Assembly: GCF_007280415.1 (NCBI RefSeq)
Contig: NZ_VKKU01000002.1
Coordinates: 434,001-498,000 of the forward strand
Direction of reading: 5' to 3'
Source of the DNA: Sphingorhabdus contaminans
GTDB taxonomy: Bacteria; Pseudomonadota; Alphaproteobacteria; Sphingomonadales; Sphingomonadaceae
Length of the DNA stretch: 64,000 nucleotides
A program made the position numbers and the translations under genes. The notes beneath the pieces were generated by a model, which worked only from the letters and a program-made list of their open reading frames with translations, searched no databases and had not been told where the DNA came from. Positions 4,963-43,618 of this stretch are shown in pieces. How positions within the stretch are numbered: position 1 is the stretch's first letter; each line of letters begins with the position of its first letter.

Positions 4963-5119
4963 GTTACTACTCCTCTCTTGGATGGCAGATTCCATTTTCT
5001 GCTCTGCCACGCGAACTGTCAATTGCAACTCTGCCCCCTTCAACTTGGAGCGCGTGCGTGAAGGAAACCGATCCCGTTTCCCGGTCTTTCGAATGCTTGG
5101 TGTCCAGACGATGCGGTGT

Positions 5120-5704
5120 TTAGCAAATGCTTTCACAAGGCACTCCGTCATGATCGCGGTCCAGACGCGACAAGCCGCATTGGTTGAGATAAAAATTGGC
5201 TTCGCCGCAGCTCGCCATTTCGCCGCAGGTTCGTTTTGTACCGCAAGAGCATGCGGGTGAAGGCAGAGCGCGAAGCGGACCTCCTGTGGGGCGGCGTTCC
5301 GGTACACTGCCAAAAAGGGCCTGCGGGCGCGTTACCTGTGGCGGCAGGTGATCACGCACCAGGCTTTGCTTGACCCAGCATTTTTCGAAAGGCGCCCGAT
5401 CAAGCGCTATCCACGATGCGCTCGTTACCCGCGCACGGACCTGATCTCCGTAGCGGAGCTGCGCAACGACAGGACTATCGGGGTTGGGGGCGCTGCGACA
5501 ATTGAGCGTCTCGACAGCGACGAAACGAGCTCTTGACGGCATCGCTTCACTTAACGATCCGGCCTCTGCACCGACATCGGTATCGATCGACGCATCCGCG
5601 CTGTCGCCTTTATCCGCCCCGGAACCGCATCGACCAATAAGATAGAACAGTGCAAGAGCAGTCAGGACACAACCTAAATTTGCTTGTCCAGACTTTGCCA
5701 CCAT
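5120..5704 (-). CDS. Membrane-anchored SH3-like / excalibur-domain protein
   Basis: 194 residues from MVAKSGQANLG (ATG 5704, preceded by AGGGAGGACCA). A hydrophobic N-terminal segment (VLTALALFYLIG) is a signal or membrane anchor. An SH3-like part follows (LNCRSAPNPDSPVVAQLRYGDQVRARV, about 70-120). The C-terminus is a cysteine-rich excalibur-type motif ending DRDHDGVPCESIC, which in this family binds calcium. Such proteins are usually envelope-associated. There is no obvious operon partner. Confidence 0.75.
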   Translation of the reverse strand: MVAKSGQANLGCVLTALALFYLIGRCGSGADKGDSADASIDTDVGAEAGSLSEAMPSRARFVAVETLNCRSAPNPDSPVVAQLRYGDQVRARVTSASWIALDRAPFEKCWVKQSLVRDHLPPQVTRPQALFGSVPERRPTGGPLRALPSPACSCGTKRTCGEMASCGEANFYLNQCGLSRLDRDHDGVPCESIC

Positions 5705-25648: not shown

Positions 25649-26374
25649 CTACAATTCAATTCCGAAATCAGCCGGGTCAAAAACATAGCGACCACCGCCG
25701 GGGAAAGCAGATAGCGCAAGCAACTTCCCGTTATCGTACCGCAAATGCCACGTTTGCCTGAGCTTAGGTTGGCTGGCCTTAAATACTGTCGGATCTAATA
25801 TGACGATGTTGGCTCCTGCCTTTCGATCACGGGCGGATATAGTTCGAATAAGCTCGGTGCCCGCTTGCCTTGCTGCTCCAGCCAACTCCTGACATCCGTC
25901 ATAGTCTTTGGGATGCGTCCAAACTTTTATGTCGCTTGCGAAAGGCTCCTGAGTCAAATCGATGGCACACTCGGCACCTACCGCTATGGTAAAGCTCAGA
26001 TGCTCGCTTGTCGTCGATGGCGGATGCAGCCCCGGTGAACGCGCAAAGAAGCGCAAACGCCAGTAAGCTGTTTCTGCTATCGCAGTGGCTTCATGCTCGC
26101 TGCTATAGAATAAGCCTGGCCGCTCATTTGCTCGTCGGAACCGGCTCGCAATGCTGTGCCCATATCTGAATGGTGCCGCTAAGAGATAGTGAAGTCCGCG
26201 CGCCGTTTTCGGAAGATTTGGCTTAACTTCATCCGCCAACTCTTCGAGGCGTTGTTGATCTTCCAAATTATCGGTGAGCCTGTTTGTGGAAATCCGATGC
26301 TGGGCTTCCACCACCCGCCAGACCACACCTCTATATTCTTGGAACTCAGACGCGAGCGCGGTAGGCGTCCACAT
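25649..26374 (-). CDS. RES-domain toxin (NAD+ phosphorylase type)
   Basis: 241 residues. The RES domain spans about 15-230. Arg and Glu/Tyr motifs of the family are present (RGVVWRVVEAQH; RRANERPGLFYSSEHEATAIAE; AYWRLRFFA). RES toxins degrade NAD+ and are held in check by an Xre/MbcA/ParS-type partner. That partner is encoded immediately upstream with overlapping reading frames (26346-26374). ATG 26374 was chosen over a GTG two codons earlier. Confidence 0.85.
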   Translation of the reverse strand: MWTPTALASEFQEYRGVVWRVVEAQHRISTNRLTDNLEDQQRLEELADEVKPNLPKTARGLHYLLAAPFRYGHSIASRFRRANERPGLFYSSEHEATAIAETAYWRLRFFARSPGLHPPSTTSEHLSFTIAVGAECAIDLTQEPFASDIKVWTHPKDYDGCQELAGAARQAGTELIRTISARDRKAGANIVILDPTVFKASQPKLRQTWHLRYDNGKLLALSAFPGGGRYVFDPADFGIEL

Positions 26375-26723
26375 AATCACATACCGCGATCAAACCTTTA
26401 AAGCTGTCGATCAGTTCAATCGGCTTTGCGTCCAGATCCATATTATATGTAGCAAGCCAACTCTGCGCCGCCGTGTCGTCACTTCCGACGACAGAGTCCA
26501 GGCTGCGAAATAGCCGCAGCAAAAACTGGCCTGCTTCAAACGACTTGGACGAAGGATCAAGTTTGGTTTGACCCGACCGGAGACGCGATACTGTGGCTGC
26601 AGACAAACCCAAAACCGTGCCCATCTTACTATTGCTCAAGGCCCAAAGATCCGCAATTTTTGCGACTGCGGAACTTAGCAGCACTCCATCGTTATGCTTC
26701 TTCGCTGCGATTTGAGGCGTCAT
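26346..26723 (-). CDS. Xre/MbcA/ParS-type antitoxin
   Basis: 125 residues. The N-terminal half carries an HTH-like part (LSNSKMGTVLGLSAATVSRLRSGQ) and the C-terminal half the toxin-binding region (FLLRLFRSLDSVVGSDDTAAQSWL), as in Xre antitoxins of RES toxins. ATG 26723 has TGGAG six bases upstream. Overlap with the toxin gene supports coupled expression of a type II toxin-antitoxin pair. Confidence 0.85.
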   Translation of the reverse strand: MTPQIAAKKHNDGVLLSSAVAKIADLWALSNSKMGTVLGLSAATVSRLRSGQTKLDPSSKSFEAGQFLLRLFRSLDSVVGSDDTAAQSWLATYNMDLDAKPIELIDSFKGLIAVCDYVDAYRARV

Positions 26724-26805
26724 AGCAAGCTCCATTTGCACAAATATACTTAAGATTGTTCAAATGAATTTGCAAGTTTTGTGAAGTTTAGAGCGCATAT
26801 CAGCT

Positions 26806-29730: not shown

Positions 29731-30633
29731 ATGGCCGATTTTCAGCACGTGCATGAAGTGCCGCCTGAAGGCGCTAACGCCGATTGGACAATCCCGCAAA
29801 ATTGGGAAGCCTTCAACGCCGATAATCATCGGATGTGGGATAGGTTGTTCACAAGACAATCTGAATTGCTACCCGGCCGAGCAGCTGACGCCTTTCTGCG
29901 TGGAATTGATATGCTAAAACTATCGAACTCAGGCATTCCAGATTATCGCGAACTCAACGCAAGACTGGAGGCAGCGACAGGCTGGACAGTCGTTGCCGTC
30001 CCAGGGCTCGTTCCTGATGCGGTCTTTTTCGACCATCTCGCTAACCGACGCTTTCCGGCCGGCAATTTCATTCGATCTCCCTTACAGATGGATTACCTTC
30101 AAGAGCCGGACATATTTCACGACGTATTTGGCCATGTGCCCATGCTGACCGATCCTGTCTTTGCCGATTACATGGTTGCATATGGCAAAGGTGGGTTGCG
30201 CTCATTGAGGTTTGGTGCTCTCCATCATCTGGCGCGGCTTTACTGGTACACGGTAGAGTTTGGGTTGATTGAGCAGCCCGATGGACTTCGCATCTACGGA
30301 GCGGGTATCGTCTCAAGCTACGCTGAAAGCATCTTTGCACTGGATGATCCGAGCCCCAACCGCATTGATTTTGACCTAGTGCGCATCATGCGCACACATT
30401 ACCGCATTGATGATTTCCAGCAGAATTATTTCGTAATTCCAAGTCTGGAATTTCTACTCAAGGTCACGCTCGAAACTGATTTCGCGCCCCTTTATGCCAA
30501 CCTCAAAGCTTTGCCGGATATCGCCGTTGCTGACATCGTACCGCAGGACTCAATTGTAACAAGAGGTACCCAAGAATTTGCTGCTTCCCGCAATAAGAAA
30601 GTCTGGTTCTATCGTTCAAAGCATGGGCTTTAG
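29731..30633 (+). CDS. phhA: Phenylalanine 4-monooxygenase
   Basis: Converts phenylalanine to tyrosine with tetrahydropterin and O2. It has 300 residues, bacterial monodomain size. The iron ligands are visible in HDVFGHVP (His130, His135) and YWYTVEFG (Glu about 176). The region FIRSPLQMDYLQEPDIFHD is the classic aromatic amino-acid hydroxylase block. No regulatory domain is fused, but a separate ACT-like protein is encoded directly upstream. Confidence 0.95.
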   Translation: MADFQHVHEVPPEGANADWTIPQNWEAFNADNHRMWDRLFTRQSELLPGRAADAFLRGIDMLKLSNSGIPDYRELNARLEAATGWTVVAVPGLVPDAVFFDHLANRRFPAGNFIRSPLQMDYLQEPDIFHDVFGHVPMLTDPVFADYMVAYGKGGLRSLRFGALHHLARLYWYTVEFGLIEQPDGLRIYGAGIVSSYAESIFALDDPSPNRIDFDLVRIMRTHYRIDDFQQNYFVIPSLEFLLKVTLETDFAPLYANLKALPDIAVADIVPQDSIVTRGTQEFAASRNKKVWFYRSKHGL

Positions 30634-30752
30634 GTCATCTTGAACGGCGTCGATGTTGGAGCTGCTCGCAATCCTGATTGCGACACCGACGAGAAACGAT
30701 AGGATGCGAAGCGAACGAACGACGTGAAACATAATACAGTGAAGGAAACACG

Positions 30753-30959
30753 ATGACTAATTTTTACGAAGCGGTTGAGATACTTAAAGAGACTCTGACG
30801 GCGATCCGGAGGGCAGATAAGTTAATTGAAAAGGCGCTTGAAACAAATTCTCACCCTAGCGCCATTAGCGACATGGCGGAATCTTGTTCTCGCTTGAAAG
30901 CGAAGCTCGAAGAAGAAATGGAAGAGCTGCAGTCAGCAATTGACACCGGAGGAAGATAA
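30753..30959 (+). CDS. Small coiled-coil protein
   Basis: 68 residues, almost entirely charged heptad-like helix (EAVEILKETLTAIRRADKLI; LKAKLEEEMEELQSAID). GAAGGAAAC precedes the ATG. Not recognised. Confidence 0.55.
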   Translation: MTNFYEAVEILKETLTAIRRADKLIEKALETNSHPSAISDMAESCSRLKAKLEEEMEELQSAIDTGGR

Positions 30960-31036
30960 GGCCTCGCGCGACGATCGCCCATTTACGTCTGCGTTTATCG
31001 CTGTCCCCTGCAACCATATGTACTCGGCGCGTTTAG

Positions 31037-31141
31037 CGCTTTCCTAAGGGCGATGTGCGACACTATATCACACCAAATTCCTGCAAGATGCTCGATGATC
31101 TGGAAGCGCACTTTGCTAGTTCTGAGCCGACTCCTGCCTGA
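31037..31141 (+). pseudogene. Possible C-terminal fragment of a recombinase
   Basis: In the otherwise gene-free 30960-31296 stretch, an open frame after a TAG reads RFPKGDVRHYITP, KMLDDLEAHFASSEP and a stop. It has no start codon of its own. The RHYITP/LDDLEAHF tail resembles the end of tyrosine-recombinase-type integrases, but the match is from memory and short. It lies at the left edge of the defence island, where a decayed integrase would be expected. Confidence 0.25.
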
Positions 31142-31296
31142 GTTTCTATTTTACGGAATCAATTCTCTGATCCATCTAATCATCTGAAGGACCGTCCCCT
31201 CCCTAACCGATTGACCCATATCTTAGTTTTTGTTCACTTTGCGTTCTAAAGATGCTATGGCTTGATGAGAGTAGAAAAAGGCAAAGTGGTAGGTTC

Positions 31297-32079
31297 ATGG
31301 CAGAAACACAGATTGAATGGACCGACGCCACCTGGAACCCGGTTGCAGGTTGCTCGATCGTGAGTGCAGGCTGCACTCACTGCTACGCGATGGACATGGC
31401 TCGCCGATTGGAAACAATGAATGTTGCCAAATATAAAGGACTTGCTCGAAAAAGCGGCAACCGATCAGTTTGGACTGGTCTTGTTCGAGAAGATATGAAC
31501 GCGCTAGATTTGCCACGACGTTGGCGTAAGCCTCGAAAGATATTCGTAAATTCTATGAGTGATTTGTTTCATGAAGGTGTGAGTGACTCCTTCATAATGG
31601 AAGTGTGGGAAGTCATGCGTGAGACGCCACAGCACCATTATCAAATACTTACGAAACGTCCTGAGCGCATGGCAGAGGTAGTAAGCAAACTGATTAAAGA
31701 TGTTTTGCCGAATGTGTGGCTTGGAACAAGTGTTGAAAGCTCTGAGGTGGTAGATCGAATTACCCATCTTCGGAACGTATCGGCAGCTATTCGTTTCATC
31801 TCATTTGAACCCTTAATTGGTTCGGTAGGCCAGATAGATCTGACGGATATACATTGGGCAATTGTCGGAGGAGAAAGCGGCCGAAATGCACGACCTATTC
31901 GTGAAGAATGGATCGATGAGATCCATAATCAATGCCTAACATATGATACGGCATTCTTCTTCAAGCAGTGGGGGGCGTGGGGCAAGGACAATAAGCGGCG
32001 ATCTAAAAAGGCGAACGGTCGAGAATACCGTGGACGGATCTGGAATAACATGCCGAACAATTTGTCCGTTACTGCCTAG
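31297..32079 (+). CDS. DUF5131 (phage Gp37/Gp68-type) three-Cys protein
   Basis: 260 residues. Start MAETQIEWTDATWNPVAGC is the standard beginning of the family; the 31252 reading is extra. Three cysteines in CSIVSAGCTHC (19, 26, 29) suggest an iron-sulfur or radical-SAM-like site. Further blocks are KIFVNSMSDLFHEGV, ILTKRPERM and IVGGESGRNARP. The gene is followed 15 bases later by its frequent partner TcmP. Activity is not established; the pair is common on phages and in mobile regions. Confidence 0.85.
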   Translation: MAETQIEWTDATWNPVAGCSIVSAGCTHCYAMDMARRLETMNVAKYKGLARKSGNRSVWTGLVREDMNALDLPRRWRKPRKIFVNSMSDLFHEGVSDSFIMEVWEVMRETPQHHYQILTKRPERMAEVVSKLIKDVLPNVWLGTSVESSEVVDRITHLRNVSAAIRFISFEPLIGSVGQIDLTDIHWAIVGGESGRNARPIREEWIDEIHNQCLTYDTAFFFKQWGAWGKDNKRRSKKANGREYRGRIWNNMPNNLSVTA

Positions 32080-32094
32080 GTCGGCTTAAGGAGG

Positions 32095-33342
32095 ATGCCT
32101 GAGAAAGAATATAAGTGGGTCGAAGGCGCGACGCTAGACGATCATTCCAAGCGAAAACACAAGATTCTGCGCGAGTACTTCTCCAACTATCTCACCGTTC
32201 GATGCCAAATTCCGCAGATGAACAGATTTCGTTTGGCAGTCGTCGACGGGTTCGCCGGAGGCGGGCGGTATAAATGCGGTGCGGCCGGCTCACCATTAAT
32301 TTTTGCCGAAGAATTGAAGCGGTCGTTAGAAGCCGTGAACCTTAAGAGATCAGTCCAAGGACTAGGTCAAATCGACATGGAATGTCTGCTGATAGTAAAT
32401 GATTTCAGCCGTGACGCAATAGAAACGCTAAAGGCAAACTTAGCGCCAATACAAGCCGAAATAAAATCTGAGGTTCCCAAACTTCATTTGCGAGTTGAAT
32501 ATCTGAATGATGCTTTCGAGACCGCATACTCAACTATTCACCAACTCTTGACAGACGGCTCATATCATAATGTGATCTTCAATTTGGATCAGTGCGGTCA
32601 CAGTAAAGTCAATCACTCGACTTTGACGCAAATTATGAGATCGTATCGTTCGGTGGAAATTTTCTACACATTCATGATCACTTCATTGCTTACCTATCTG
32701 CAAGCGAATGATCCCAAAAAACTTGCTGCGCAATTAAGGCCTTTTGAAATCTCAGTTGAAGAAATCCAAACTCAGACAATTGGAATGAATAAGCAACAGT
32801 GGCTAGGTGCAGCTGAACGGATCGTATTTGAGTCGTTCAACGGATGTGCAAAATATGTCAGCCCGTTCTCCATAAATAATCCCGAGGGATGGAGATATTG
32901 GCTAATACATCTCGCCAACTCTCACCGTGCACGCCAGGTTTATAACGACCTCTTGCACAACAATAGTTCGGAGCAAGCGCACTTCGGTAGATCGGGATTA
33001 AATATGCTATCCTATGATCCTCGACACGATTCCGGGGCACTGTATTTGTTTGATATATCAGGACGAGCCTCAGCTCTCGATCGCTTAATGACTGATATTC
33101 CTAGACTCGTTTCTGAGTTTGGAAATGTTGTCCCGGTTGGAGAATTTTACGAGGGTATTTACAATGCTACTCCAGCACACAGTGAAGATATTCACCGGGC
33201 AATAATTGATAATCCAGATCTAGAAGTTGTTACGCCAACGGGAGGCGAAAGACGAAGCGTCAAGACAATTTCCGTTGGAGATATCATTCAATTGAAGAGA
33301 CAAACCAGTTTTTTTCCCGTCTTTTTCGACAAACAGTTTTGA
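32095..33342 (+). CDS. Three-Cys-motif partner protein (TcmP)
   Basis: 415 residues. The N-terminal part has a methyltransferase-like glycine loop (LAVVDGFAGGGRY, about 49-60) and a helical front typical of TcmP (DDHSKRKHKILREYFSNYL). The C-terminal part is unassigned. It lies directly after the DUF5131 gene, as in most genomes that carry the pair. AAGGAGG touches the ATG with almost no spacing, so the true start might differ. Codon use looks AT-richer than the housekeeping neighbours. Confidence 0.8.
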   Translation: MPEKEYKWVEGATLDDHSKRKHKILREYFSNYLTVRCQIPQMNRFRLAVVDGFAGGGRYKCGAAGSPLIFAEELKRSLEAVNLKRSVQGLGQIDMECLLIVNDFSRDAIETLKANLAPIQAEIKSEVPKLHLRVEYLNDAFETAYSTIHQLLTDGSYHNVIFNLDQCGHSKVNHSTLTQIMRSYRSVEIFYTFMITSLLTYLQANDPKKLAAQLRPFEISVEEIQTQTIGMNKQQWLGAAERIVFESFNGCAKYVSPFSINNPEGWRYWLIHLANSHRARQVYNDLLHNNSSEQAHFGRSGLNMLSYDPRHDSGALYLFDISGRASALDRLMTDIPRLVSEFGNVVPVGEFYEGIYNATPAHSEDIHRAIIDNPDLEVVTPTGGERRSVKTISVGDIIQLKRQTSFFPVFFDKQF

Positions 33343-33497
33343 TTAGCTCTTGATCGCTGAAAGAGCCTTCAAAGTTGCAATGTTCCGAAGCGATATCACA
33401 CGCCCGCAGCAAGGAAAAATCGGAAAGTAAGGTATCGTGATTGTGGTCAAAGTGCTGCGATCGCCCTAGAAGAGCAGCAGATTATAAGGAGACCAGC

Positions 33498-35378
33498 GTG
33501 CGCAAGGATACCATTGATTCTGAAGACCTTAGTCTTTCGAAGTTCTTCCAGTCATTCTATCGAGTACCCGACTATCAGCGCGAATATGTCTGGGGTGAAA
33601 AGGAAAACAAAGGGCAACGCGGCGATGAGGTTGAGCAGTTTCTTGCTGATATTTACAGCGAGTTTGATCAGCTTTCTGAAAACTATGCGCCCGAATACTT
33701 CATCGGAACCGTTGTCGTTTGCGAGGGCAAGGACGGCGTTTATGATCTCATCGACGGGCAACAACGATCCACAACCGTATTCCTCACGCTTTGCGCAATA
33801 AGAGATGCACTATCGGATCTGGGTGCTGAGGTTCCAGACACGCTGACTAGTCTTATATCAGCAAGTAAAACTGACCATGTCGGGCAAACAGTAAAACGCC
33901 TTCGACTTGATTTACAATATGAGGACGCAAGCAACGTTCTCGTAGAATATGGATTGAATCACGGAGCAAAAGCTCGCCGTGAGGAAACGCGATCTATTCG
34001 AAATCTCGCCAATGCATATGAGGCGATCCGGGATTTTCTGCGGGATAAGTTCGGCACCGATGCTGCTGCACACACCCGCTTTTATGGCTACTTCACAAAC
34101 TTAGTAAAATTGATCCGGATCGAAACTCCGAGCGTCAGCAGAGCTCTTAAAATATTCGAAACGATCAACGATCGGGGTGCGGGCCTGGACGCGATGGACC
34201 TACTTAAAAACCTTTTGTTTATGCATGCCAAAGAAGAGCAGTTCGATAAACTCAAATCCGAGTGGAAATCACTCACACAAGAAATCTATGAAGCTCGCGA
34301 AAAGCCACTTCGGTTTTTACGTTATTTCATTCTAGCCAATTTTGATGTTGGCGTCTCGAAGCTTCGCGAAGAAGAAATTTACGACTGGTTGATCGATAAT
34401 AAGCACCAAACCCACCATGAGCAAAATCCGATAAACTTTGCTACGAAGCTGAAAGAGGCTGCACGAGCTTATAAAAACTTCAACTCAAACGAAAGTCCAG
34501 CCGGCCGCTTTGAACATGGCTTAGCTAACACCCGCGCACTTGGCGGACCTGCTATCAAACAGCATTTCATTTTATTGTTAGCTGGCCGCCATTTGAGCCA
34601 GGAAAATTTCGAACGCTTATGCTTTGGAATCGAAGAAGTTATGTGCGTCTGGTTGATCGCTGGCGTTCCCGCAAAAGAGTATGACGGGGCCCTGATTAGA
34701 GCTGCATCGGAACTAAACAAAGTAAGCTCTGATCAAGAGTTCTCAGTGTTCATGGAGAATTTTGTGGATGCGGAGAAATCTCGGCACCGGGTCAAGTTTG
34801 TGGAGAAAATGAATACGCTCAAGGCTGGAGATGTTCGTCAATTTCGTTTGAAATATCTGCTCGCTAAATTCACTCAGTTTTATGATCTCGAAGCCTACGG
34901 CGAAAATGCCGGTAAAGACAAATTGTCGGACTATCTCGTCCCCAAGATCGAAATTGAACACGTTTTTCCGGAGAATCCAAGTGCGGGAGCGATCGCGGAG
35001 TTTGGCGAATTTGATCCCGACGACAACCCCACGCAGCGTTTAGGAAATTTGATACTGCTGGAGAAATCTCCAAACGTAGTCGCGAGTAATGAAGCATATT
35101 CGGTGAAGTCTAAAATCTACTCCACGTCCGCTATGCTGCTTACCCGATGCCAAGCTACGAAGCTGTTGGTTGGAGAGAACGACCGAATTACGAAAGCGGT
35201 ATCTAAGATTGACATAGCTCCGCTCTGGAACCTCGAAGCGGTAAAACGTCGGCAAGATTGGTATGCAGAAGCCGCTTTGGATGTTTGGAATGTGCGGAAC
35301 GCAAAGGCACCGGTTGCCAATACTGATGCCATGCCGGCTGAGCCAGGCGGTGACGTTGGTATTACCAGCCTCATCTGA
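33498..35378 (+). CDS. GmrSD-like DUF262/DUF1524 nuclease
   Basis: 626 residues. The DUF262 domain has YQREYVW (about 26-32) and IDGQQRSTT (85-93), a ParB-like nucleotide-binding/NTPase signature. The C-terminal DUF1524 domain carries an HNH-type block (EIEHVFPENP near 484-493, then RLGNLILLEKSPN). The two-domain single-chain form matches type IV restriction enzymes such as GmrSD that cut modified phage DNA. GTG 33498 has AAGGAGA six bases upstream, preferred over the 33441 reading. Target modification unknown. Confidence 0.85.
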   Translation: MRKDTIDSEDLSLSKFFQSFYRVPDYQREYVWGEKENKGQRGDEVEQFLADIYSEFDQLSENYAPEYFIGTVVVCEGKDGVYDLIDGQQRSTTVFLTLCAIRDALSDLGAEVPDTLTSLISASKTDHVGQTVKRLRLDLQYEDASNVLVEYGLNHGAKARREETRSIRNLANAYEAIRDFLRDKFGTDAAAHTRFYGYFTNLVKLIRIETPSVSRALKIFETINDRGAGLDAMDLLKNLLFMHAKEEQFDKLKSEWKSLTQEIYEAREKPLRFLRYFILANFDVGVSKLREEEIYDWLIDNKHQTHHEQNPINFATKLKEAARAYKNFNSNESPAGRFEHGLANTRALGGPAIKQHFILLLAGRHLSQENFERLCFGIEEVMCVWLIAGVPAKEYDGALIRAASELNKVSSDQEFSVFMENFVDAEKSRHRVKFVEKMNTLKAGDVRQFRLKYLLAKFTQFYDLEAYGENAGKDKLSDYLVPKIEIEHVFPENPSAGAIAEFGEFDPDDNPTQRLGNLILLEKSPNVVASNEAYSVKSKIYSTSAMLLTRCQATKLLVGENDRITKAVSKIDIAPLWNLEAVKRRQDWYAEAALDVWNVRNAKAPVANTDAMPAEPGGDVGITSLI

Positions 35379-35450
35379 CCCTACTGATTCAAAGAGCGGC
35401 GAGAATATTTGATATCCTCGCCGCAACATTTCCAAACATCTAAGTACAGA

Positions 35451-35792
35451 TTAGCGCTGGTTGATTGCCCGTCCCGCAGCTTTGCCACTTCCACTCCCGG
35501 TTTTTCCTGACATCGCCAACCGGACCTGCTCGGCAGCATCCTGACGTGCGGTGCGGCGGCAGTTATTTTCGTGCGCAATTTCGGGCAACGAGCGGCCATT
35601 TTGGCGACAAACACTGCGGATTGCGCGGCTAACGCGTTTTTCAAGCTCGGTTGCTCCAGCATCTGTCTGGATATTCAAGTCATCATGATAGACCTTGAAG
35701 GTCACGGTTTCTGTTGCATTCGCCGACACGGGTCCGTGTGCAAAGGCGAGCACTGTGGCGCAGGCCACAAGGGTACTGTGAGAGAATTTCAT
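35451..35792 (-). CDS. UrcA-family secreted protein
   Basis: 113 residues. A signal peptide ends near VSANA. The UrcA pattern is visible: VTFKVYHDDLNIQTDAGATE, LEKRVSRAIRSVCRQ, then two cysteines (VCRQ, NNCR) likely in a disulfide. GGAG precedes the ATG at 35792. UrcA proteins are typical of sphingomonads and relatives and have no known function. It is an oddity inside the defence island, on the opposite strand. Confidence 0.8.
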   Translation of the reverse strand: MKFSHSTLVACATVLAFAHGPVSANATETVTFKVYHDDLNIQTDAGATELEKRVSRAIRSVCRQNGRSLPEIAHENNCRRTARQDAAEQVRLAMSGKTGSGSGKAAGRAINQR

Positions 35793-36143
35793 AAGATACT
35801 CCAAGTTCGGTGAAAGATTGCGACCCTTAAGATCAGCGTTCCCCACCGCCGTCCCCGACCATAAGATGCGCGAAAGTCTTATTTCCGTAACGTCAATCCA
35901 ATAAACTATTGTTTGCGCAGATTAGTTACGTGGCTCTTCAGCCGCGACCGGGTGAGCCCGAACTTGCATGTCGATTTCGGTCGCATTTTCCACGGAGTAA
36001 TTTGTAGTCGCGAACTAAACGACAATCCTCTGACTCAGCTTTTTATAAAAAAAGATACGGGTTGCTTGCGGCTTTTCTATTTCCACTCGTCTTGCCTTGT
36101 GTCCGGTCGAAAAGCGATCCGTTCCGGGCGAAAAGGGAAGCGG

Positions 36144-36188
36144 CGGGCATCTCGTATTTTATTGATTCCTCCATATCAATGATGCCCG
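36144..36188 (+). ncRNA. Nested hairpin with TCCTCC loop
   Basis: The outer arms CGGGCATC / GATGCCCG (8 pairs) enclose an inner stem ATTGAT / ATCAAT whose loop is TCCTCCAT. A TCCTCC loop can pair with Shine-Dalgarno sites. No promoter is visible; strand assumed. Confidence 0.35.
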
Positions 36189-36393
36189 TCGTTTCCTGAC
36201 TTGCCCTCGTCTGAGAACGTAAAAGCAGTTGGGTCGCCCGACGGTAACTTTACGGAGAACGAGTTCTTCTCTCATTGAGGACTGGATGCCAATCTTTTAT
36301 ACCCCGAGAAAATTTGTGACGGTTTTGTTACGGATCGCACACGTTTGTTCATCTAAATACTGCCGGATACGTTAAACGCATTCGGTATAATGG

Positions 36394-36465
36394 CGGCGCC
36401 TCACTACTGGGTCCCTTTCTGTCATCGGCAGTTCCGAGTGCGAGGCGCCGTTTCTTGTTTTGTTC
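36394..36465 (+). terminator. Orphan terminator-like hairpin
   Basis: The arms CGGCGCCTC and GAGGCGCCG (36394-36402, 36442-36450) are extended by CAC/GTG with a bulge and followed by TTTCTTGTTTTGTTC. No plus-strand gene precedes it, so it may end an unannotated small RNA. A TATAAT lies just upstream at 36386 without a matching -35. Confidence 0.5.
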
Positions 36466-36695
36466 TGAATCTATCATATCAACGACGAAGTCGATTTTTG
36501 TCGTATTTGGCCACTGGAGAGTTTCAAAAACTTTTCATTAACGTTGCTAGATTTAGAAAAATCTACAGACAGCATGTCAATTTACGGGAAGTTCATAGAT
36601 TAAATGCTGTTTCTAGATAATTGGCCGCGGTCACTTGCATTTTAGATAATGAATCACCAAATATTTTCACCAATAATAATTTGAAAAAGTAGAAA

Positions 36696-37382
36696 ATGAT
36701 CCAATATAATACAGTTGCCGGGTGGATGGAGTTTCCATACCTTACAGTTTCACACGGGCTGACCGCAACCTATGCTATAGCTTACAAGCTGAAAGATAGG
36801 AATGGAGAGCACTGGACCGCTCGGTTCAGTCGATTTAAAGAAAAGCGCAATATAGCAGAGTGGGGTGCTGCGACGGTTTTATACAAGGCCGTACCAGCGC
36901 TCATCGAACACTTAGCGGTCGATGTTAACCGCACAATTTTTCTTCCCGCGCTGTCTTCAGGAGAGACGCTTGCGGATCCCAACCGTGCAATTCCTTGGAT
37001 CGCAAAGGAGTGTGCACGTGTTTGTGGCGCAGGATATTCAGACACATCTCTTTCAAAAAACCCGCATCAGAAGATACACACAATTTACAATGCAGATGGA
37101 CGAACGGCCGAACTAGACAAAGCGAACTATCGAGCGGCAACTATGCCAGCGGACACATTTTTTGTATTTGATGATATTGTCACCCGAGGCGATACTCTAT
37201 CTCGGATCGCACTCGCAATTCATGCCGCTAATCCTAACAGCACTGTATATGGAATAGCGCTCGCGAAATCCGAAAGTGTAGGTTATTGTCCAAACCCAGA
37301 TAACAATCAGGTTCCTACTTTGTGGAATAATCTGTGGGAGCAAGGCGAGCAGGCGCACAAAGAGAAATTTTCGAAGGTGTAG
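36696..37382 (+). CDS. shosT: ShosT-like phosphoribosyltransferase-fold protein (predicted toxin)
   Basis: 228 residues with a type I PRTase core. The PRPP-binding loop is FFVFDDIVTRGDTL (about 154-167) and an upstream block FLPALSSGETLADP precedes it. PRTase plus adjacent DprA is the arrangement of the ShosTA anti-phage toxin-antitoxin system, in which the PRTase is the toxic part. The stop is 3 bases before the dprA-like start. A weak ribosome site and AT-rich leader precede ATG 36696. Assignment rests on domain pairing, not on sequence comparison. Confidence 0.75.
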   Translation: MIQYNTVAGWMEFPYLTVSHGLTATYAIAYKLKDRNGEHWTARFSRFKEKRNIAEWGAATVLYKAVPALIEHLAVDVNRTIFLPALSSGETLADPNRAIPWIAKECARVCGAGYSDTSLSKNPHQKIHTIYNADGRTAELDKANYRAATMPADTFFVFDDIVTRGDTLSRIALAIHAANPNSTVYGIALAKSESVGYCPNPDNNQVPTLWNNLWEQGEQAHKEKFSKV

Positions 37383-37385
37383 AAA

Positions 37386-38348
37386 ATGGCTAGCCTCACA
37401 ACATCAACGTCAGCAGTCGCTTTTGCAGCACTACTAAGGCTCAAAGGTATTGGTCGTCGTGCCGCGCTACGCATTGTTGACAGTCCAATGCCTGAGATCG
37501 ATGCACAACAATATCTATTACAGCGAACGCGTGGCGCGAAATTGTCAGAGGATGATGTTATAGCCGCATGGCATAAAGCAGAAGATGACTTGGGATGCTC
37601 CGCAGACCATGGAATTAAAGCATTGTCGATTCACGACGAGGGCTACCCCGAACGGCTAAAAAACATCCCTGATCCACCAGTTATTCTCTACGTAAAAGGA
37701 GATGTTGCGGGCCTCAAAAGCGAACGAAGCTTAGCGGTAATCGGAACAAGAGAGCCCACGCCATATGGCGAGAAAGTAGCTAAACGCTCGGCCGCTAGTG
37801 CTGTTGAAGAAGGCTATGTTATCGTCAGTGGCCTCGCACATGGTTGTGATACGTTGGCCCATGAAGGCTGCCTCGATCAGATGGGGATAGGCATTGCCGT
37901 AATGGCACATGGGCTAGACAAGGTTTATCCTGCGGCCAATCGCGGGCTTGCCGCGCGGCTCTTGGATGCAGGCGGTTGCTTGGTAAGTGAATACCCGCTT
38001 GGTATGACTCCTATGCGCACTGCCTTCGCGGAGAGGGATAGGATTCAAAGTGGCTTGTCTGACGCTGTGCTTGTTATCGAAACTGACGTAAAAGGCGGCA
38101 CGATGCATACCGTACGTTTTTCGCGAGACCAAAAGCGCGCTTTAGCCTGTATTAAACACCCCGACATCTGGCGTCACGAAGACAAAACACGCGGTAATCA
38201 AATGCTAATCGCAGATCGCTGGGCTGAAGCCATTCCCGATGGAGAGGCGTTATTGAGTTTTCTTCGGAAGCTGTGTGTTCAAGGTTCGGTACGATCAGAG
38301 GAACCTTGCCCCACCATACCCAAAACACAGATGTGTTTGGATTTCTAA
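37386..38348 (+). CDS. shosA: ShosA-like DprA/Smf protein (predicted antitoxin)
   Basis: 320 residues. A helical front with a GIGRRAALRI hairpin is followed by the Rossmann-like DprA core: AVIGTREPTPYG (about 117-128), VIVSGLAHGCDTLAHEGCL (about 142-160), AVMAHGLDKVYPAANRGLA and VIETDVKGGTMHT. The housekeeping DprA loads RecA in transformation, but linkage to a PRTase and location among defence genes point to the ShosA role. Gaps of 3 bases on both sides make a tight three-gene operon. Confidence 0.8.
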   Translation: MASLTTSTSAVAFAALLRLKGIGRRAALRIVDSPMPEIDAQQYLLQRTRGAKLSEDDVIAAWHKAEDDLGCSADHGIKALSIHDEGYPERLKNIPDPPVILYVKGDVAGLKSERSLAVIGTREPTPYGEKVAKRSAASAVEEGYVIVSGLAHGCDTLAHEGCLDQMGIGIAVMAHGLDKVYPAANRGLAARLLDAGGCLVSEYPLGMTPMRTAFAERDRIQSGLSDAVLVIETDVKGGTMHTVRFSRDQKRALACIKHPDIWRHEDKTRGNQMLIADRWAEAIPDGEALLSFLRKLCVQGSVRSEEPCPTIPKTQMCLDF

Positions 38349-38351
38349 ACG

Positions 38352-38864
38352 ATGGTAATTTTTGACTTCGACCAGACCCTTGTAGATACATCATCCGTTG
38401 AAAAATTTCGATCTACGAAAAACTGGGGAGCCGTCATGGCTCAGGCATCTTCGTTGCCTGTCTATGGCGGTATCACCGAATTGCTCGCCGAACTCGACGG
38501 TGCAGGCCATACACTCGCTATCGTGACAAAAAGTCCCGACATGGTGCCAAGAGCATTTATTCGAGCGCATAACTGGCCGATCAAGATTGTAGTTGGACAC
38601 CATCAAGTGCGGGTTAAAAAGCCCAACCCGGAGGGACTTTTACTCGCAATGTCAAAAGCCAATGTCACCCCCAACACAACCTATCACGTTGGGGATCACT
38701 CTCAAGATACTGAGGCTTCGAGACGCGCCGGTGTCGTCGCGCTTGGTTCAGCTTGGGGATGCAGCGACATTAGCGACTTGGTGAAGTCCAAACCTGATCG
38801 GCTATTTCATACTGTAGACGAACTCGGCGCCTTTCTGAAGAGCGCTGCAGTCTCTATAAGCTAA
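38352..38864 (+). CDS. HAD-superfamily hydrolase, third gene of ShosTA-like operon
   Basis: 170 residues. Motif I FDFDQTLVDT at the start supplies the two Asp, motif II is VTKSPD, the Lys is in KKPNPEGLL, and motif IV is HVGDHSQDTEASRRAG. It is a phosphoglycolate-phosphatase-like HAD protein, probably a small-molecule phosphatase. It starts 3 bases after the dprA-like stop, so it is co-translated with the PRTase/DprA pair. Its substrate could be a phosphoribosyl product, but that is inference. Confidence 0.8.
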   Translation: MVIFDFDQTLVDTSSVEKFRSTKNWGAVMAQASSLPVYGGITELLAELDGAGHTLAIVTKSPDMVPRAFIRAHNWPIKIVVGHHQVRVKKPNPEGLLLAMSKANVTPNTTYHVGDHSQDTEASRRAGVVALGSAWGCSDISDLVKSKPDRLFHTVDELGAFLKSAAVSIS

Positions 38865-38890
38865 TTTAGCAAATGCGTTGGGGTCAAACA

Positions 38891-39250
38891 CTAGCGCAAA
38901 TGTTGGTTGAGAAATCGGACCAGTTTCGGAGATGGCCTCATTCTCATTCCTGGCAATGAAATAGTCTTTCCCGCAATTTGATATGAAATCGTATTTGCGT
39001 CTTCTTGAGATTGAGAAAGGTTGCCGACAGCTTCCCAAATATACATGTTACGCCAAACGCCATCTAGCCATATACGATCCAGACCTAGAGCAACTGGATT
39101 AACCGGTCGCCAGACAGCAACACCACTTCTTCTGTGCTCCACGAATCCGGTTTCGATCCCGAGCGACAGCATTACGTGATGGTTTCTGACCACCCTATCC
39201 AATCGCTCTTCGCTGTCACCAATTTGAATTTTATGCCTCGTACTCCGCAC
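38891..39250 (-). CDS. Hypothetical protein between two defence operons
   Basis: 119 residues starting at GTG 39250, which has GCGGAG seven bases upstream. No signal peptide; a central WRPVNPVALGLDRIWLDGVW stretch is tryptophan-rich. It converges on the HAD gene and is divergent from Kiwa. Not recognised; a defence-accessory role is possible only by location. Confidence 0.5.
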   Translation of the reverse strand: MRSTRHKIQIGDSEERLDRVVRNHHVMLSLGIETGFVEHRRSGVAVWRPVNPVALGLDRIWLDGVWRNMYIWEAVGNLSQSQEDANTISYQIAGKTISLPGMRMRPSPKLVRFLNQHLR

Positions 39251-39357
39251 GTCAATCTCCGCTTTTTCTCCTTGTATACTTCACTTTGAACAAATAGTGA
39301 ACTAGGCACTTATAAAAGGTGACAAAATTTTCACACTCATGAGTTTATCTGCAGGAT

Positions 39358-39972
39358 GTGCATAACGATATGCAGTTTCGATTACCGGCATCGTTGATCA
39401 TTTTTGCAGGGTCATATCTGCCCTTGAGCGTAATCCTGCTTGCCCAAGATTTCGATTACTCAGCTATTGACCGACGGTTGTGTTTTCCAGGTCAGCTGGA
39501 AAACTGTATTTTGCCGTTGTCAAATCCAACATTTGCGATCGGCATTTTCGTCGTCACATTGGTATGTTTCATCGCGACATTATCACTACTGAAGTTAGTT
39601 GTTCCGAAGCATGACGTGGAGATTACTGAGGCGGAGTATGTTCCGGCCGATCTGATAAATTATACTCTTCCTTACATTGTGTCATTTATGAGCATCGACT
39701 ATCAAGACTCTGGCAAGTTGGTCGGCTTATGTGTTTTCCTCGGTTGGATGTTTTGGATTACCCATAAGTCGGGCCAGATCATATTAAATCCCGTACTCAT
39801 TGCACTTAATTGGCGACCGTATAACATTTCCTTTCATTATGTTGGAGCCCCACAAATTCGTCAAACTTTGGCGTTGGTAAATGGAGAACTCGAATTGGGA
39901 CCACATAAACTGTGGCCCGTACAGAGCATTCAAATCATCAAACCTGCAGGACCTAGCGATGCCGATTCCTGA
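39358..39972 (+). CDS. kwaA: KwaA-like membrane protein of a Kiwa system
   Basis: 204 residues with four hydrophobic segments: SLIIFAGSYLPLSVILLA near the start, FAIGIFVVTLVCFIATLSLL, a third near LPYIVSFMS, and LVGLCVFLGWMFWI. A cytoplasmic tail follows. KwaA is the membrane partner in Kiwa, an anti-phage system with a DUF4868 protein encoded next. GTG 39358 or ATG 39370 could be the start. The end overlaps kwaB by 14 bases. Identified mainly by size, topology and partner. Confidence 0.75.
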   Translation: MHNDMQFRLPASLIIFAGSYLPLSVILLAQDFDYSAIDRRLCFPGQLENCILPLSNPTFAIGIFVVTLVCFIATLSLLKLVVPKHDVEITEAEYVPADLINYTLPYIVSFMSIDYQDSGKLVGLCVFLGWMFWITHKSGQIILNPVLIALNWRPYNISFHYVGAPQIRQTLALVNGELELGPHKLWPVQSIQIIKPAGPSDADS

Positions 39973-40882
39973 AAATTTTGCTAACTTTGATATTGATAAT
40001 GCTGGAGTAACCGTTTGGCTTTTTAAAAAGTCTGGCGGTGGCGCAGGAGCTGCCCCGACATTCTCTGGTCGGTGGATCGCAACAACCGACGAATTGGATG
40101 CAGCGTTAAAAAATGCAGTTTTCGATGCACGTGCGCGCATTGAGGAAGTACTTGAGTATGGATTGCTTGCTCAAAACCACGAAGCAAGCGTTCTTGCGAT
40201 CGACACTTTGGAGACTTTTGCAGACCGTATAATAGCGGCCACGGCCAATCCTTTACCGCAACGCCAGATTCGTAATAACGCCCAAATTAGAAACTCGGAG
40301 TTTTATGTTATCAGGCTAACAAGCAACGGCGAGATATTACACGCGATCCATAAAACAGACGCGAGCTGGAAATCTCGAAAGCAATTTCAAGCTATTCAAG
40401 CTTTCTTTCATAATGAGACCATGGGTTTACAGGAGGATCCACCTGTCACCCTTTCCCGCAAAGTCGATTTTTTCATTTTTGGCGATCGCATTTATATTGA
40501 AAACAAGCGTAGTTTTGAATCAGTATTAAGCTATCGACAGGCGCACGAAGAGGAGTTTGCGGCATTAAGGGCAGAAGAGCCGTTTGCCGCTTTGTTTACA
40601 GATATCGCACCGCTCGTGGCATTTGTGGGCACAAACAGGATTCAATTGCGTAGGGTGTGTGCGATCCGTCAAAAAGGTCACTATCGGAATCAAGATTTTA
40701 TGCAGCGTCTACGCGCGCAGTTTGCAAATTATAACCTGACCATACATTTTGACGAAAATGGTCGGGTTAATCCGACCCTCGAAACATGTGCTGATATCAT
40801 CACTGCGCTTTTGGACCACCGTCTAACATCCGCATTCTCCGAGAACATTTACGACGTACCAGATGCAACTCGCGTTAACTAA
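39959..40882 (+). CDS. kwaB: KwaB, DUF4868 protein of a Kiwa system
   Basis: 307 residues from MPIPENFANFDID (ATG 39959, AGGA upstream). The DUF4868 pattern is visible: VDFFIFGDRIYIENKRSF, VSYR-like LSYRQAHEEEF, LRRVCAIRQKGHY, then the C-terminal LTIHFDENGRVNP, LLDHRLTSAFSENIYDV. KwaB is reported as the DNA-binding effector working with membrane KwaA. Gene overlap with kwaA supports coupled expression. Confidence 0.85.
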   Translation: MPIPENFANFDIDNAGVTVWLFKKSGGGAGAAPTFSGRWIATTDELDAALKNAVFDARARIEEVLEYGLLAQNHEASVLAIDTLETFADRIIAATANPLPQRQIRNNAQIRNSEFYVIRLTSNGEILHAIHKTDASWKSRKQFQAIQAFFHNETMGLQEDPPVTLSRKVDFFIFGDRIYIENKRSFESVLSYRQAHEEEFAALRAEEPFAALFTDIAPLVAFVGTNRIQLRRVCAIRQKGHYRNQDFMQRLRAQFANYNLTIHFDENGRVNPTLETCADIITALLDHRLTSAFSENIYDVPDATRVN

Positions 40883-41462
40883 GCTCTGAATATTTGCGGC
40901 CATGTTATTTGCTTATTTTAAAAACGGACTTTGGCAACGGTAGGCTTGCCAAGCATCCCACTGAACACATTTTTTGTCGGCCGTTTGCACAAAAGTTTTC
41001 TGCCCCCACCGTCGGGGCTGCAAACCTTTCGTCGCTTGCTCGATAGTCAGGGGACCAGATGTGGTCCGCAGCGTCATCGCAGTTCCCACTGCAATCGGCT
41101 TCGTCAAAGGTGCCCAATATCAGGTTAGTGGGCAATGCTGAAATGCCGGTTCAAATGACTGGTATCGATTATCAACTTGCCCATGCCCGGAGATGTCAGC
41201 CGAGTGGTTGAACGCTGTGCCTATTCTCGCTCAACTTAATTGCAGATTAGACTTCAGCATGCCAAGTCTCGATGCGTGTGAAGAGCATTGCTGAGCGCTT
41301 TGTCGGATTCTAAGTTTTGGTCAAAATTGACCGTAATTAAGTGGGGCAAGGATCGCTTCGCGCTCCGCTGAAAATATTGCGCCAAAACATTCTACTTGTC
41401 CTGTCGTAGCACCGCTCCTCACTTCAGCATTGATCCTGAAGCTCGAAAAGCCATGTCCTGAT
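40883..41462. other. Gene-poor stretch at the right edge of the defence island
   Basis: 580 bases. A minus-strand frame at about 40913-41077 (ending DAWQAYRCQSPFLK) has no good start and may be a gene remnant. No tRNA, integrase or clear att repeat was found. Confidence 0.35.
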
Positions 41463-42377
41463 CTACAGTTGTTTCACCCAAGTTTCGATTTCCAACTCCG
41501 CCCCCGCAATTTTTTGAGGCTCTTTAGCGGCAAATGTCCAGCCGAGCGTTCGAAATACGTTCGGCCAAGCGATGTTGTTAGGAATACGTGCGGTAACATT
41601 GATACACCCCGCCGACGCCGCTCTTTGCATCGCCAGTTTGACCATCCCTGCGGTACTTTCAATATCTGTGAAGCCGATTGCACCCCAGAGTCCATTAAGA
41701 CGCGCCGACGCTTTCTTTTGATCAACAAAAAGCAGGATAGATCCTACCACGCAGCCATGTCTTTCGTAGACAATGATATGGTGATGGGTTCTGTCACACA
41801 CTTCCGCAAACTGTCGCAGTACGTAACCTTCGATCTGGCTATTGAATCTGAAAGGGAAGGGGCCCCTATAGAAATCAAGCGCATTGCTAATTATTTGCGA
41901 CACCTCACCAGGATAAGCTGTTCGCCAGCGTTCAGGTTCGTCAGTACCTGCATCAACGAAACGCAGTTTTCCCAAATTCTCTAACGCATCGATAAAAGCT
42001 TTCCGCTCAGGACGCAGCATTTGCCCTAGCAGTCGCGAAATGGCATCGTATCGAGCTCTTTCTACCCGCAAAAGCTGTTTCCAGCCCCGTTCTGTCAGCT
42101 TGTACGCGGGCCAAGGGCCTTGTGGCGGTTGGCTGATCTCAATTAACCCCTTGGTCTTGAGACTTTTGATGGCGCGACTGAGCTGCCCTCTTTCAATCTG
42201 TGTAACTTTACGCAAATTTGCCTGCGTCGACGGACAACCGCGCAGTCTGTGCATTATGCGACCTTCAGCCGGCGCGTATCCATACTGGCTTGTCTCCCGC
42301 GATATGGAGTGCATGAGGCCATCGTATTGCGCAGAAAATGAGGCAATGGCAGCTACGGGATTTTCGCTGAACATCAT
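41463..42377 (-). CDS. MarR-GNAT fusion protein
   Basis: 304 residues. The N-terminal half is a MarR-type winged HTH (GCPSTQANLRKVTQIERGQL, SRAIKSLKTKGLIEI, YKLTERGWKQL). The C-terminal half is a GNAT acetyltransferase fold (ERHGCVVGSILLFVDQ; LWGAIGFTDIESTAG). The fusion is known in proteobacteria as a transcription regulator with an acyl-transfer or sensing domain. ATG 42377 is preceded by GAGGGAATT. It stands before the catabolic cluster and could regulate part of it. Confidence 0.85.
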   Translation of the reverse strand: MMFSENPVAAIASFSAQYDGLMHSISRETSQYGYAPAEGRIMHRLRGCPSTQANLRKVTQIERGQLSRAIKSLKTKGLIEISQPPQGPWPAYKLTERGWKQLLRVERARYDAISRLLGQMLRPERKAFIDALENLGKLRFVDAGTDEPERWRTAYPGEVSQIISNALDFYRGPFPFRFNSQIEGYVLRQFAEVCDRTHHHIIVYERHGCVVGSILLFVDQKKASARLNGLWGAIGFTDIESTAGMVKLAMQRAASAGCINVTARIPNNIAWPNVFRTLGWTFAAKEPQKIAGAELEIETWVKQL

Positions 42378-42781
42378 AATTCCCTCGTGATCAATCGTGT
42401 TGCTATCAATGTTGATAAAGTCAACGATTTGATAAGCCTTTAGCCGAATAATTGTACAAGTTACGAATTTTTTGAGCGGCAATGGTATTGACCGGCTGCG
42501 CAGAAAGTAGCGGCTGACGAAAACTCAGTTTCTGATTATCATTCAAGTGCTTAATATGGTTTTGTAAAGCCGCTAGACTATTTGTATCATGCCAGTCTAT
42601 ACTGCTCCTCGCGCGGTCGCGCGTGCGCGCGCGAGGATTGCGACTCGTACTATAAATGGGAAAATTTTAGAGAGACGATTTTGCACCGGATTGCGCGCCG
42701 CACCAAAATCCAAAAACAACTTCATGCCAATGCTGGAGCACAATGCGGAAATGCGTGTCCAATCGCCGCGCGAAGCGGTAG
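42378..42781. other. Spacer with GC hairpin
   Basis: The region upstream of the MarR-GNAT gene and downstream of the LytTR gene. CCTCGCGCG and CGCGCGAGG (42607-42615, 42628-42636) form a 9-pair hairpin in an alternating GC tract. It lacks a T run. No gene is supported. Confidence 0.4.
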
Positions 42782-43618
42782 TCACATCAGCGCGCTGGAA
42801 ACATTTCTCTGGTAAGCTCTTCCGATCGGCACAGTGAATCCATTGCGCAAGGTCAATGATCGTGCGCTGTGGTTTGCGACTTCCTGAGCTGTTACGCACC
42901 AGGAACGGTGAACCTGGATACCGCCCAGTCTTTGCATATCTGTGACGGCATCGCGGAAACGATACAGAACCAGATCTTCCCCATGCTCTGTAAAGACACG
43001 CACATAATGCAACTCGGCATTCACCGCGATAACCCGGCCGCGCAAAGCGGGCCGAACCTTCTTCATGAAGGCTGGTTGATATGAAACTTGCGGTGCCGAA
43101 GGAATTGAAAGGGATGAAGCGTCCGGCTCGGAATGCCAGACAATTCCAAACAGCTTTCCGCCATTACTGCGGCACGCCACCAGATTTATCGTAAGCCACA
43201 GCAGTAAAGGGGCAATAGTACTGCTGGCCATCTGCCCGAGTGACAGGTGGGTCAGCGAGCTCAATCCATTCCGTTCAAAACCCCATAAACGGAATACATC
43301 GCCAAATGACAGATTGAGAAGCACACTGAAGGGGGCTGACAATCCGAATGCGACCAATAGCACAATGATCAACGGATAACCCCGACGGTGGAGCGGTGCG
43401 GCTATCGGCCGCGCTGCCAAATCGTTAAGGAGCCAGCTTGTCACCGACAGAACAGACCAGATGCAAGCCGAAGCTACGCGACGTTCCCCAATGGCTCCTG
43501 TCCAGCCAATGATAAAACCGATCGCCGCTGGCGCTACCAGCAAACGGTAAAATTCGGACCGTAGCCGTTCGATATCCGACCCTTGGCCCCCTTGAAAAGG
43601 AAAGAGCGCGTTGATCAT
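42782..43618 (-). CDS. Membrane-anchored LytTR-domain regulator
   Basis: 278 residues. Four hydrophobic segments occupy the first 160 residues (VAPAAIGFIIGWTGAI; PLIIVLLVAFGLSAPF; IAPLLLWLTINLVA). A C-terminal LytTR DNA-binding domain follows (VIAVNAELHYVRVFTEHGED, LQRLGG-type turn, VHRSWCVT, FTVPIGRAYQRNV). This is a one-component membrane LytTR regulator. Start MINALFPFQ (43618, AAGG upstream). It is divergent from the amine oxidase and receptor genes and is a candidate regulator for them. Confidence 0.8.
   Translation of the reverse strand: MINALFPFQGGQGSDIERLRSEFYRLLVAPAAIGFIIGWTGAIGERRVASACIWSVLSVTSWLLNDLAARPIAAPLHRRGYPLIIVLLVAFGLSAPFSVLLNLSFGDVFRLWGFERNGLSSLTHLSLGQMASSTIAPLLLWLTINLVACRSNGGKLFGIVWHSEPDASSLSIPSAPQVSYQPAFMKKVRPALRGRVIAVNAELHYVRVFTEHGEDLVLYRFRDAVTDMQRLGGIQVHRSWCVTAQEVANHSARSLTLRNGFTVPIGRAYQRNVSSALM

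Follow-up and report, generated by a model that had tools for sequence, protein, structure and literature searches.

ShosTA is reportedly a pair of genes encoding a phosphoribosyltransferase (PRTase) and a DprA-family protein, said to have been described by Kimelman in 2012 and by Rousset in 2022. As stated in portions of PMC9122126, homologs of DprA are the antitoxins in shosTA, syrTA, and rqlHI, and the P2-borne ShosTA pair protects Escherichia coli against T7 and lambda; for this pair the authors propose sensing of phage DNA by DprA, which would activate the PRTase. In RqlHI, according to parts of PMC4670107, toxicity requires an Asp of the pocket for 5-phosphoribosyl pyrophosphate (PRPP), the DprA-like RqlI binds the PRTase part of its partner, and the PRTase domain of RqlH is not toxic by itself. 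How PRTase toxins of the ShosTA/RqlHI type do harm is not settled in the literature, as far as these portions go. In this study, a window of 64,000 nucleotides (nt) from Sphingorhabdus contaminans (G000:C2:434001-498000, on the 1.6-Mb contig C2) was analyzed; unless another genome or record is named, the positions below are those of the window. Within it, a stretch of about 10 kb (31252-40882) holds four adjacent predicted anti-phage sets, all on the + strand, as found by an open reading frame (ORF) listing and by Pfam, PADLOC, and NCBIfam profiles. One of them joins PRTase and DprA genes to a gene for a phosphatase of the haloacid dehalogenase (HAD) superfamily, and by its sequence it appears to be a split, catalytically intact variant of ShosTA. 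We consider it on balance probable that the whole is best explained as a defense island that includes this three-gene variant, with the PRTase-DprA-HAD mechanism proposed below.

The trio starts with a PRTase of 228 amino acids (aa) (36696..37382, +), a candidate ShosT-like toxin with the PRPP-binding motif FVFDDIVTRGDT at residue 156 and a match to the PADLOC ShosT profile PDLC03962 (2.4e-8). After a gap of 3 nt follows the gene for a DprA-family protein of 320 aa (37386..38348, +; PADLOC ShosA 3.3e-74; PF02481 5.8e-61), a candidate ShosA-like antitoxin or sensor, and 3 nt behind its stop codon lies the third gene of the operon, encoding a HAD phosphatase of 170 aa (38352..38864, +; PF13419 (HAD_2) 1e-21). 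Members of the HAD superfamily are characterized by the motifs DxD, T/S, K, and GD..D; in the window protein D5, D7, T59, K90, D115, and D119 are all intact. Some observations count against membership of the PRTase in ShosT: it was not matched by the longer ShosT model PDLC03012, PDLC03962 matches ordinary PRTases too, and its profile match to P2-type ShosT is weak (see below). No Pfam family reached its cut-off with this protein. The initial annotation had described a ShosTA-like pair with an extra HAD gene. The pair is borne out by the ShosA and ShosT profiles of PADLOC and by the DprA profile PF02481; the word "extra" did not hold, and instead of the two-gene layout of ShosTA a three-gene operon PRTase-DprA-HAD was found. 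We count the HAD as part of the ShosTA-like set because the same operon, in the same gene order, was kept in all five close PRTase relatives found, and because HAD-PRTase fusions exist.

Three of these relatives came from a plasmid search with the PRTase and two more from a scan of genome contigs: Agrobacterium sp. S7/73 (where dprA spans the start of the plasmid record), Rhizobium leguminosarum CB782, Sinorhizobium meliloti pHRB800, Ensifer sesbaniae, and Flavimaribacter sediminis. In three rhizobia the trio is borne on plasmids. The HADs of the five are 62-65% identical to the window HAD, with all catalytic residues kept. The neighbors of the five trios differ; two have a gene annotated as recombinase or transposase immediately upstream or one gene beyond. 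SMC-like, AAA ATPase, and dGTPase genes precede the trio in R. leguminosarum CB782 (110-5514 of the locus), possibly another defense cluster. More distant PRTase-dprA-HAD sets with separate genes were detected in Hymenobacter and Segatella; a plasmid of Segatella copri carries three PRTase-like genes in a row (two of them extra, upstream) before dprA and HAD (1064-2957). In Bermanella the genes are also separate, in the order dprA-HAD-PRTase, and the HAD is degenerate. No relative was found in viral contigs scanned with the HAD and PRTase alignments.

The HAD was also found in fusions. In Bradyrhizobium, Sinorhizobium fredii, and the Pseudomonas phage PfAC02a the protein adjacent to dprA has a HAD in front and a PRTase behind, the PRTase match being weaker in the first two. 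With the split-HAD profile the N-terminus of the fused HAD-PRTase proteins was matched at 99.7% probability (E 6.5e-26); for their C-terminus the split-PRTase profile gave 92.9% (E 3.7e-7). Priestia has a PRTase-HAD fusion, and on plasmids of Raoultella (L080) and E. coli (L088) a long helicase protein beside dprA has a HAD at its start, together with a weak PRTase match. Coliphage P2_4C9 carries a ShosT (PADLOC ShosT 3.4e-294) with a weak N-terminal HAD match (Pfam 2.9e-4, under cut-off), in which neither the Asp of motif I nor the first Asp of motif IV is preserved in the alignment; apparently a HAD survives there in degenerate form. Overall, the catalytic residues are kept in 15 of the 21 aligned HAD domains.

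Some related loci are built differently. A Deinococcus plasmid (L086) has a HAD fused to DprA (3359-4777), with a hypothetical protein and a helicase gene upstream and no PRTase recognized beside it. On a plasmid of Rhizobium beringeri (L101, 2086-6259) a HAD-PRTase protein lies on one side of dprA, which is apparently split over two frames, and on the other is a further protein, which matches PRTase weakly and has a degenerate HAD. A HAD of the same group follows directly after cas1-cas2 on a Cyanobacterium plasmid (3965-4486), with no dprA in the stretch seen.

The association was also counted. Fifteen loci were fetched for a DprA match, nine of which have a PRTase match beside dprA; seven of these nine have a HAD by hidden Markov model (HMM) search (E < 0.001), or eight if L104, with a degenerate HAD visible only in the alignment, is included. 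Among the six DprA loci with no PRTase match one has a HAD (L086), the absence of PRTase and HAD being judged in five of the six by our own profiles only. HAD and PRTase were associated in this small, hand-picked sample, in which some loci (L086, for example) had been chosen with the HAD match already known, at a Fisher p of 0.04, or 0.011 counting L104. Many of the PRTase matches lie under the Pfam cut-off (eight of the nine are below it or come via other profiles only), which tells against the reading proposed below, and the HAD matches of L090 and L092 are under the cut-off as well. Six loci picked by their HAD (five beside dprA), five picked by their PRTase, and two ShosT-profile matches stand outside the census. 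As a genome query PADLOC ShosT was unspecific: it matched 388 of the 398 genomes queried as well as 13 of the 14 controls, and just its two strong matches were used. We take the enrichment of HADs beside PRTase-dprA pairs as an indication.

Gene content, gene order, motifs, recurrence, and the HAD-PRTase fusion are observed here; restraint of the PRTase by DprA and the need for the PRPP pocket are backed by the published relatives and would apply to the window trio by analogy. In the mechanism that we propose, DprA would bind single-stranded DNA made in infection, the presumed trigger, and would also keep the PRTase inactive; once triggered it would release the PRTase. The freed enzyme would move phosphoribosyl from PRPP onto an acceptor, supposedly a nucleic acid or nucleotide, poisoning the cell. 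The HAD would strip the 5'-phosphate from the ribosylated product, its presumed substrate, and thereby complete or grade the modification.

That the HAD acts on the phosphoribosylated product of the PRTase is probable. The top structure match of the model of the window HAD (predicted local distance difference test, pLDDT, 80) was the alnumycin P phosphatase AlnB, which ranked third by sequence. AlnB dephosphorylates after AlnA has joined ribose-5-phosphate to prealnumycin (from parts of PMC5321127). It is thus a precedent for attachment followed by dephosphorylation and, as an analogy drawn from a model, suggests what the HAD may act on, as a hint rather than an identification. In the sequence alignment HAD residues 35-154 align to 103-224 of the AlnB chain, and the split HAD is about 70 residues shorter in the cap region. 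Cap-poor HADs often act on large substrates.

The phosphatase that travels with the PRTase, whether as a neighboring gene or fused to it, offers a chemical clue to the PRTase product. The split operon allows PRTase, DprA, and HAD to be separated one by one, unlike the fused versions, and defense-gene finders should count the HAD as a component. A wider generalization strikes us as rather doubtful: DprA-PRTase systems would be machines of three activities (DprA sensor, PRTase, and HAD phosphatase) and two-step ribosylation, in which the PRTase puts 5-phosphoribosyl from PRPP on a nucleic acid or nucleotide that the infected cell needs and the HAD, by stripping the phosphate, locks the ribosyl mark, the split operon being catalytically complete and the two-gene P2-type ShosTA a simplified descendant with a dead HAD.

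The place of the HAD, last in a toxin-antitoxin-like operon, and the invariance of its phosphatase residues in the window copy and the five relatives would also suit a safety enzyme or second antitoxin, which removes the toxic phosphoribosylated product or drains a substrate or by-product of the PRTase and so shields the uninfected cell. The record L086, where the HAD is joined to DprA instead of the PRTase, is consistent with such a role. Most fusions, however, join the HAD to the PRTase (L084, L085, L087, L091, L101), which a shared path or shared regulation fits at least equally, and we think a protective HAD unlikely.

Several observations weigh against the proposed reading, in which the HAD works on the PRTase product. 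The motif I Asp has been lost from six of the 21 HAD domains (P2_4C9, L105, L090, L097, L104, and the second protein of L101), so HAD chemistry is not required in every version, and L103 and L051 are PRTase-DprA loci with no HAD in the stretch seen (3.6 kb for L051). Profile matches to P2-type ShosT are weak for the split HAD (probability 6%) and for the split PRTase (probability 8%, E 0.0042), which places the window trio nearer to the Bradyrhizobium/PfAC02a type. At E <= 0.001 the HAD model matches 309 structures, a long list of generic HADs that AlnB heads; the PRTase model is of poor quality (pLDDT 54), and no structure matched it at the same threshold. The six HAD domains that are retained without the Asp of motif I and the first Asp of motif IV, P2_4C9 ShosT included, would agree with a HAD whose role is mainly structural or regulatory, keeping the PRTase inactive or in position, with catalysis incidental. 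A scaffold would not need the catalytic residues, though, and in the split form these are invariant despite the divergence of the proteins; a structural role does not seem likely to us, and we retain a HAD that acts on the PRTase product.

A metabolic operon, serving nucleotide salvage or related to competence, would account for the housekeeping relatives that all three proteins have (models of GntX, DprA, and phosphoglycolate phosphatase, which the HAD resembles) and for the known part of DprA in transformation. We nevertheless regard a metabolic rather than a defensive operon as quite improbable. The trio is rare: among 61 genomes searched (the own genome, 36 of the genus, and 24 of the order) the PRTase was found in the own genome alone, and in 385 genomes of the class a single weak match (E 1.1e-4) turned up beyond that in the own genome. 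It occurs on the three rhizobial plasmids, a fused relative lies beside Kiwa in an inovirus genome, ShosT is present in coliphage P2_4C9, and the DprA of the trio scores as strongly against ShosA as given above. A defensive trio is therefore the reading with which we continue.

The other three sets are of known kinds, and for all sets the term defense denotes a role predicted by homology. The first consists of a DUF5131 (three-Cys-motif) protein of 260 aa (31297..32079, +; PF07505 6e-101; PADLOC PDC-M41B 5.1e-101), with a likely start at 31297 and the motif CX6CX2C at residues 19-29, and of its partner TcmP of 415 aa (32095..33342, +; TIGR04474 212.5 bits, cut-off 53; PF22560 2.7e-7), which has a C-terminal GMT-like winged helix-turn-helix. 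PF07505 and TIGR04474 recovered both members of the adjacent pair named in the initial annotation. As in the PADLOC candidates PDC-M30 and PDC-M41, a three-Cys-motif protein adjoins TcmP, and we treat the pair as a candidate system; a literature search of titles and starts of abstracts found no mechanism for DUF5131-TcmP. On a plasmid of P. aeruginosa (L089) a DUF5131 gene (1-591) lies about 3 kb before the gene for a 490-aa DprA (3830-5302), where our own profiles found no PRTase or HAD.

Next is a putative single-chain nuclease of the GmrSD type with 626 aa (33498..35378, +; PF03235 2.3e-34; PF07510 3e-14), which may form a defense module. A GTG at 33498 behind AAGGAG is its likely start, the longer ORF beginning at 33441. 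As in other DUF262-DUF1524 nucleases, both domains (DUF262 N-terminal, DUF1524 C-terminal) and DGQQR are present, here in one chain, along with an IEHVFP motif, and the PDB relative is 9jfl_B (E 1.3e-7). It differs from type IV restriction enzymes in its top PADLOC models: Orf5 (5.6e-100) and HEC-06 (1.7e-65) are far ahead of mREase_IV (5.4e-15).

Kiwa closes the run with KwaA of 204 aa (39358..39972, +; PADLOC KwaA 6.7e-67) and KwaB (DUF4868) of 307 aa (39959..40882, +; PF16162 1.5e-26; PADLOC KwaB 1.6e-117), whose likely ATG start at 39959 overlaps kwaA by 14 nt. Both genes are present and overlapping as in the known system, but KwaA is of a divergent type, with 30 bits against an NCBIfam cut-off of 100. 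For another Kiwa, parts of PMC12904381 describe a membrane supercomplex in which KwaA forms tetramers in the membrane and KwaB binds injected DNA without cutting it; by analogy, the window Kiwa would be expected to combine a membrane sensor KwaA with a DNA binder KwaB.

Two features on the opposite strand are the sole interruptions of the run of sets, all of which read rightward, as had been noted initially. One encodes a UrcA-family protein (35451..35846, -; TIGR04433 66.3 bits, cut-off 25) that matched no PADLOC family. The other is a 119-aa ORF (38891..39250, -) that matched no Pfam, PADLOC, or NCBIfam family and nothing in the plasmid collection; with no recognized relatives, it may not be a real gene. 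A further toxin-antitoxin pair, a RES-domain protein and an Xre/MbcA/ParS-type antitoxin, was observed 4.5 kb to the left of the island (25649-26741, -).

All genes named in the initial annotation were confirmed as present and open by the ORF listing and the three profile libraries, and the KwaB and GmrSD profiles that it had put forward as a test both matched. Its claim of AT-richer sequence agrees with a GC content of 0.469 for 31252-40882, below the 0.507-0.570 found at all 177 same-length (mutually overlapping) positions in the rest of the window. The segment also did not prove to be core genome of the genus, each set being absent or rare among the genomes searched. TcmP occurs in four of 45 genomes of the genus and GmrSD relatives in five of 45 (own genome included in both counts; the other four GmrSD proteins are 24-31% identical). 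Kiwa DNA was found in one other genome of the 45 (G019), and KwaB in two of 246 genomes of the order including the own one (G019, presumably not drawn, was not among these matches). The own genome alone appears in more than one of the match lists for PRTase, TcmP, GmrSD, and Kiwa; no other has the sets together.

Contiguity, a common rightward direction, and shared low GC content might suggest that the four sets moved as one mobile block. We dropped this explanation as very improbable. Relatives carry DUF5131-TcmP or Kiwa with other neighbors: in G028, G005, and G032 the DUF5131-TcmP pair has no GmrSD gene behind it, and in G019 Kiwa lies among other genes and without the other three sets. Since these two sets each occur without the others, the sets are separable and came to adjoin. 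The GC content varies between them (DUF5131-TcmP 0.455, GmrSD 0.473, PRTase-DprA-HAD 0.497, Kiwa 0.450), with the UrcA gene at 0.548 in between. A Pfam scan of 19 distinct window proteins showed no integrase, and no flanking repeat was convincing. A single system of DUF5131-TcmP and GmrSD had also been considered and was dropped, because three relatives carry the pair without GmrSD.

By its sequence the locus is an accessory defense island, with four separable predicted anti-phage modules side by side; as an island it is ordinary. It counts against this reading that no empty site was seen, the flanking genes having no common location in the relatives compared; that a tRNA search found none in the window; and that flanking repeats sought around it were short, chance-like pairs. 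A megablast of plasmids with 30600-43000 matched nothing. Neither flank helps to locate an empty site: the left phenylalanine hydroxylase is a second copy, and the right amine oxidase has distant relatives only in the genus. The left gene (29731-30633) is one that we take by eye to be phenylalanine-4-hydroxylase-like; the other copy in the own genome, at G000:C1:719587, is 82% identical. Its neighbors are an indoleamine dioxygenase gene, a presumably Lrp-like gene (also named by eye), and a small gene whose product matches an ACT domain weakly. In six relatives the indoleamine dioxygenase gene (with Lrp in three) lies among genes that have no counterpart in the other window proteins at E <= 1e-15, and the best relatives of the amine oxidase in the genus are about 34% identical over most of its length.

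Compared with the described systems, the window trio has the PRTase with a PRPP motif adjoining a DprA-family gene that is typical of ShosTA, and ShosA and one of the two ShosT profiles match. In P2_4C9 and PfAC02a the PRTase part of ShosT is preceded by a HAD match, weak in P2_4C9. The window differs in that PRTase and HAD are separate genes flanking dprA and the HAD residues are kept, whereas the HAD of P2_4C9 is fused and degenerate. With RqlHI/PsyrTA, a RecQ-PRTase toxin and a DprA-like antitoxin, it shares the DprA partner and the PRTase toxin; unlike those systems, it has three short genes and no helicase. The L080 protein is matched better by PADLOC DpdF than by PsyrT. RqlH as described begins with a helicase, no HAD being mentioned, and the words haloacid and phosphatase are absent from the main text of the RqlHI paper (PMC4670107). 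Similar in setting is the inovirus PfAC02a (L091), which has HAD, PRTase, and DprA parts and an adjoining kwaB-kwaA as in the window; its HAD and PRTase, however, are fused with C-terminal zinc ribbons, its Kiwa is on the opposite strand, and its KwaA and KwaB were not matched by the window proteins at E <= 1e-5. The PfAC02a record annotates the gene as HAD/phosphoribosyltransferase, the paper on this phage describes ShosTA, in the portion consulted, as DprA plus PRTase (PMC11878078), and a 2026 paper mentions, in part of its text, HADs in other defense systems, citing Kimelman 2012 among others and calling their role unknown (PMC13092281). A HAD in ShosT thus has precedents in the annotation of one phage record and in a printed allusion. 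A literature search of titles and starts of abstracts found no description of the three-gene split form. Judged by homology, the sets belong to kinds of systems already known (ShosTA, Kiwa, DUF262/DUF1524 nucleases, and the candidate with TcmP), and the split three-gene form of ShosTA appears to be new.

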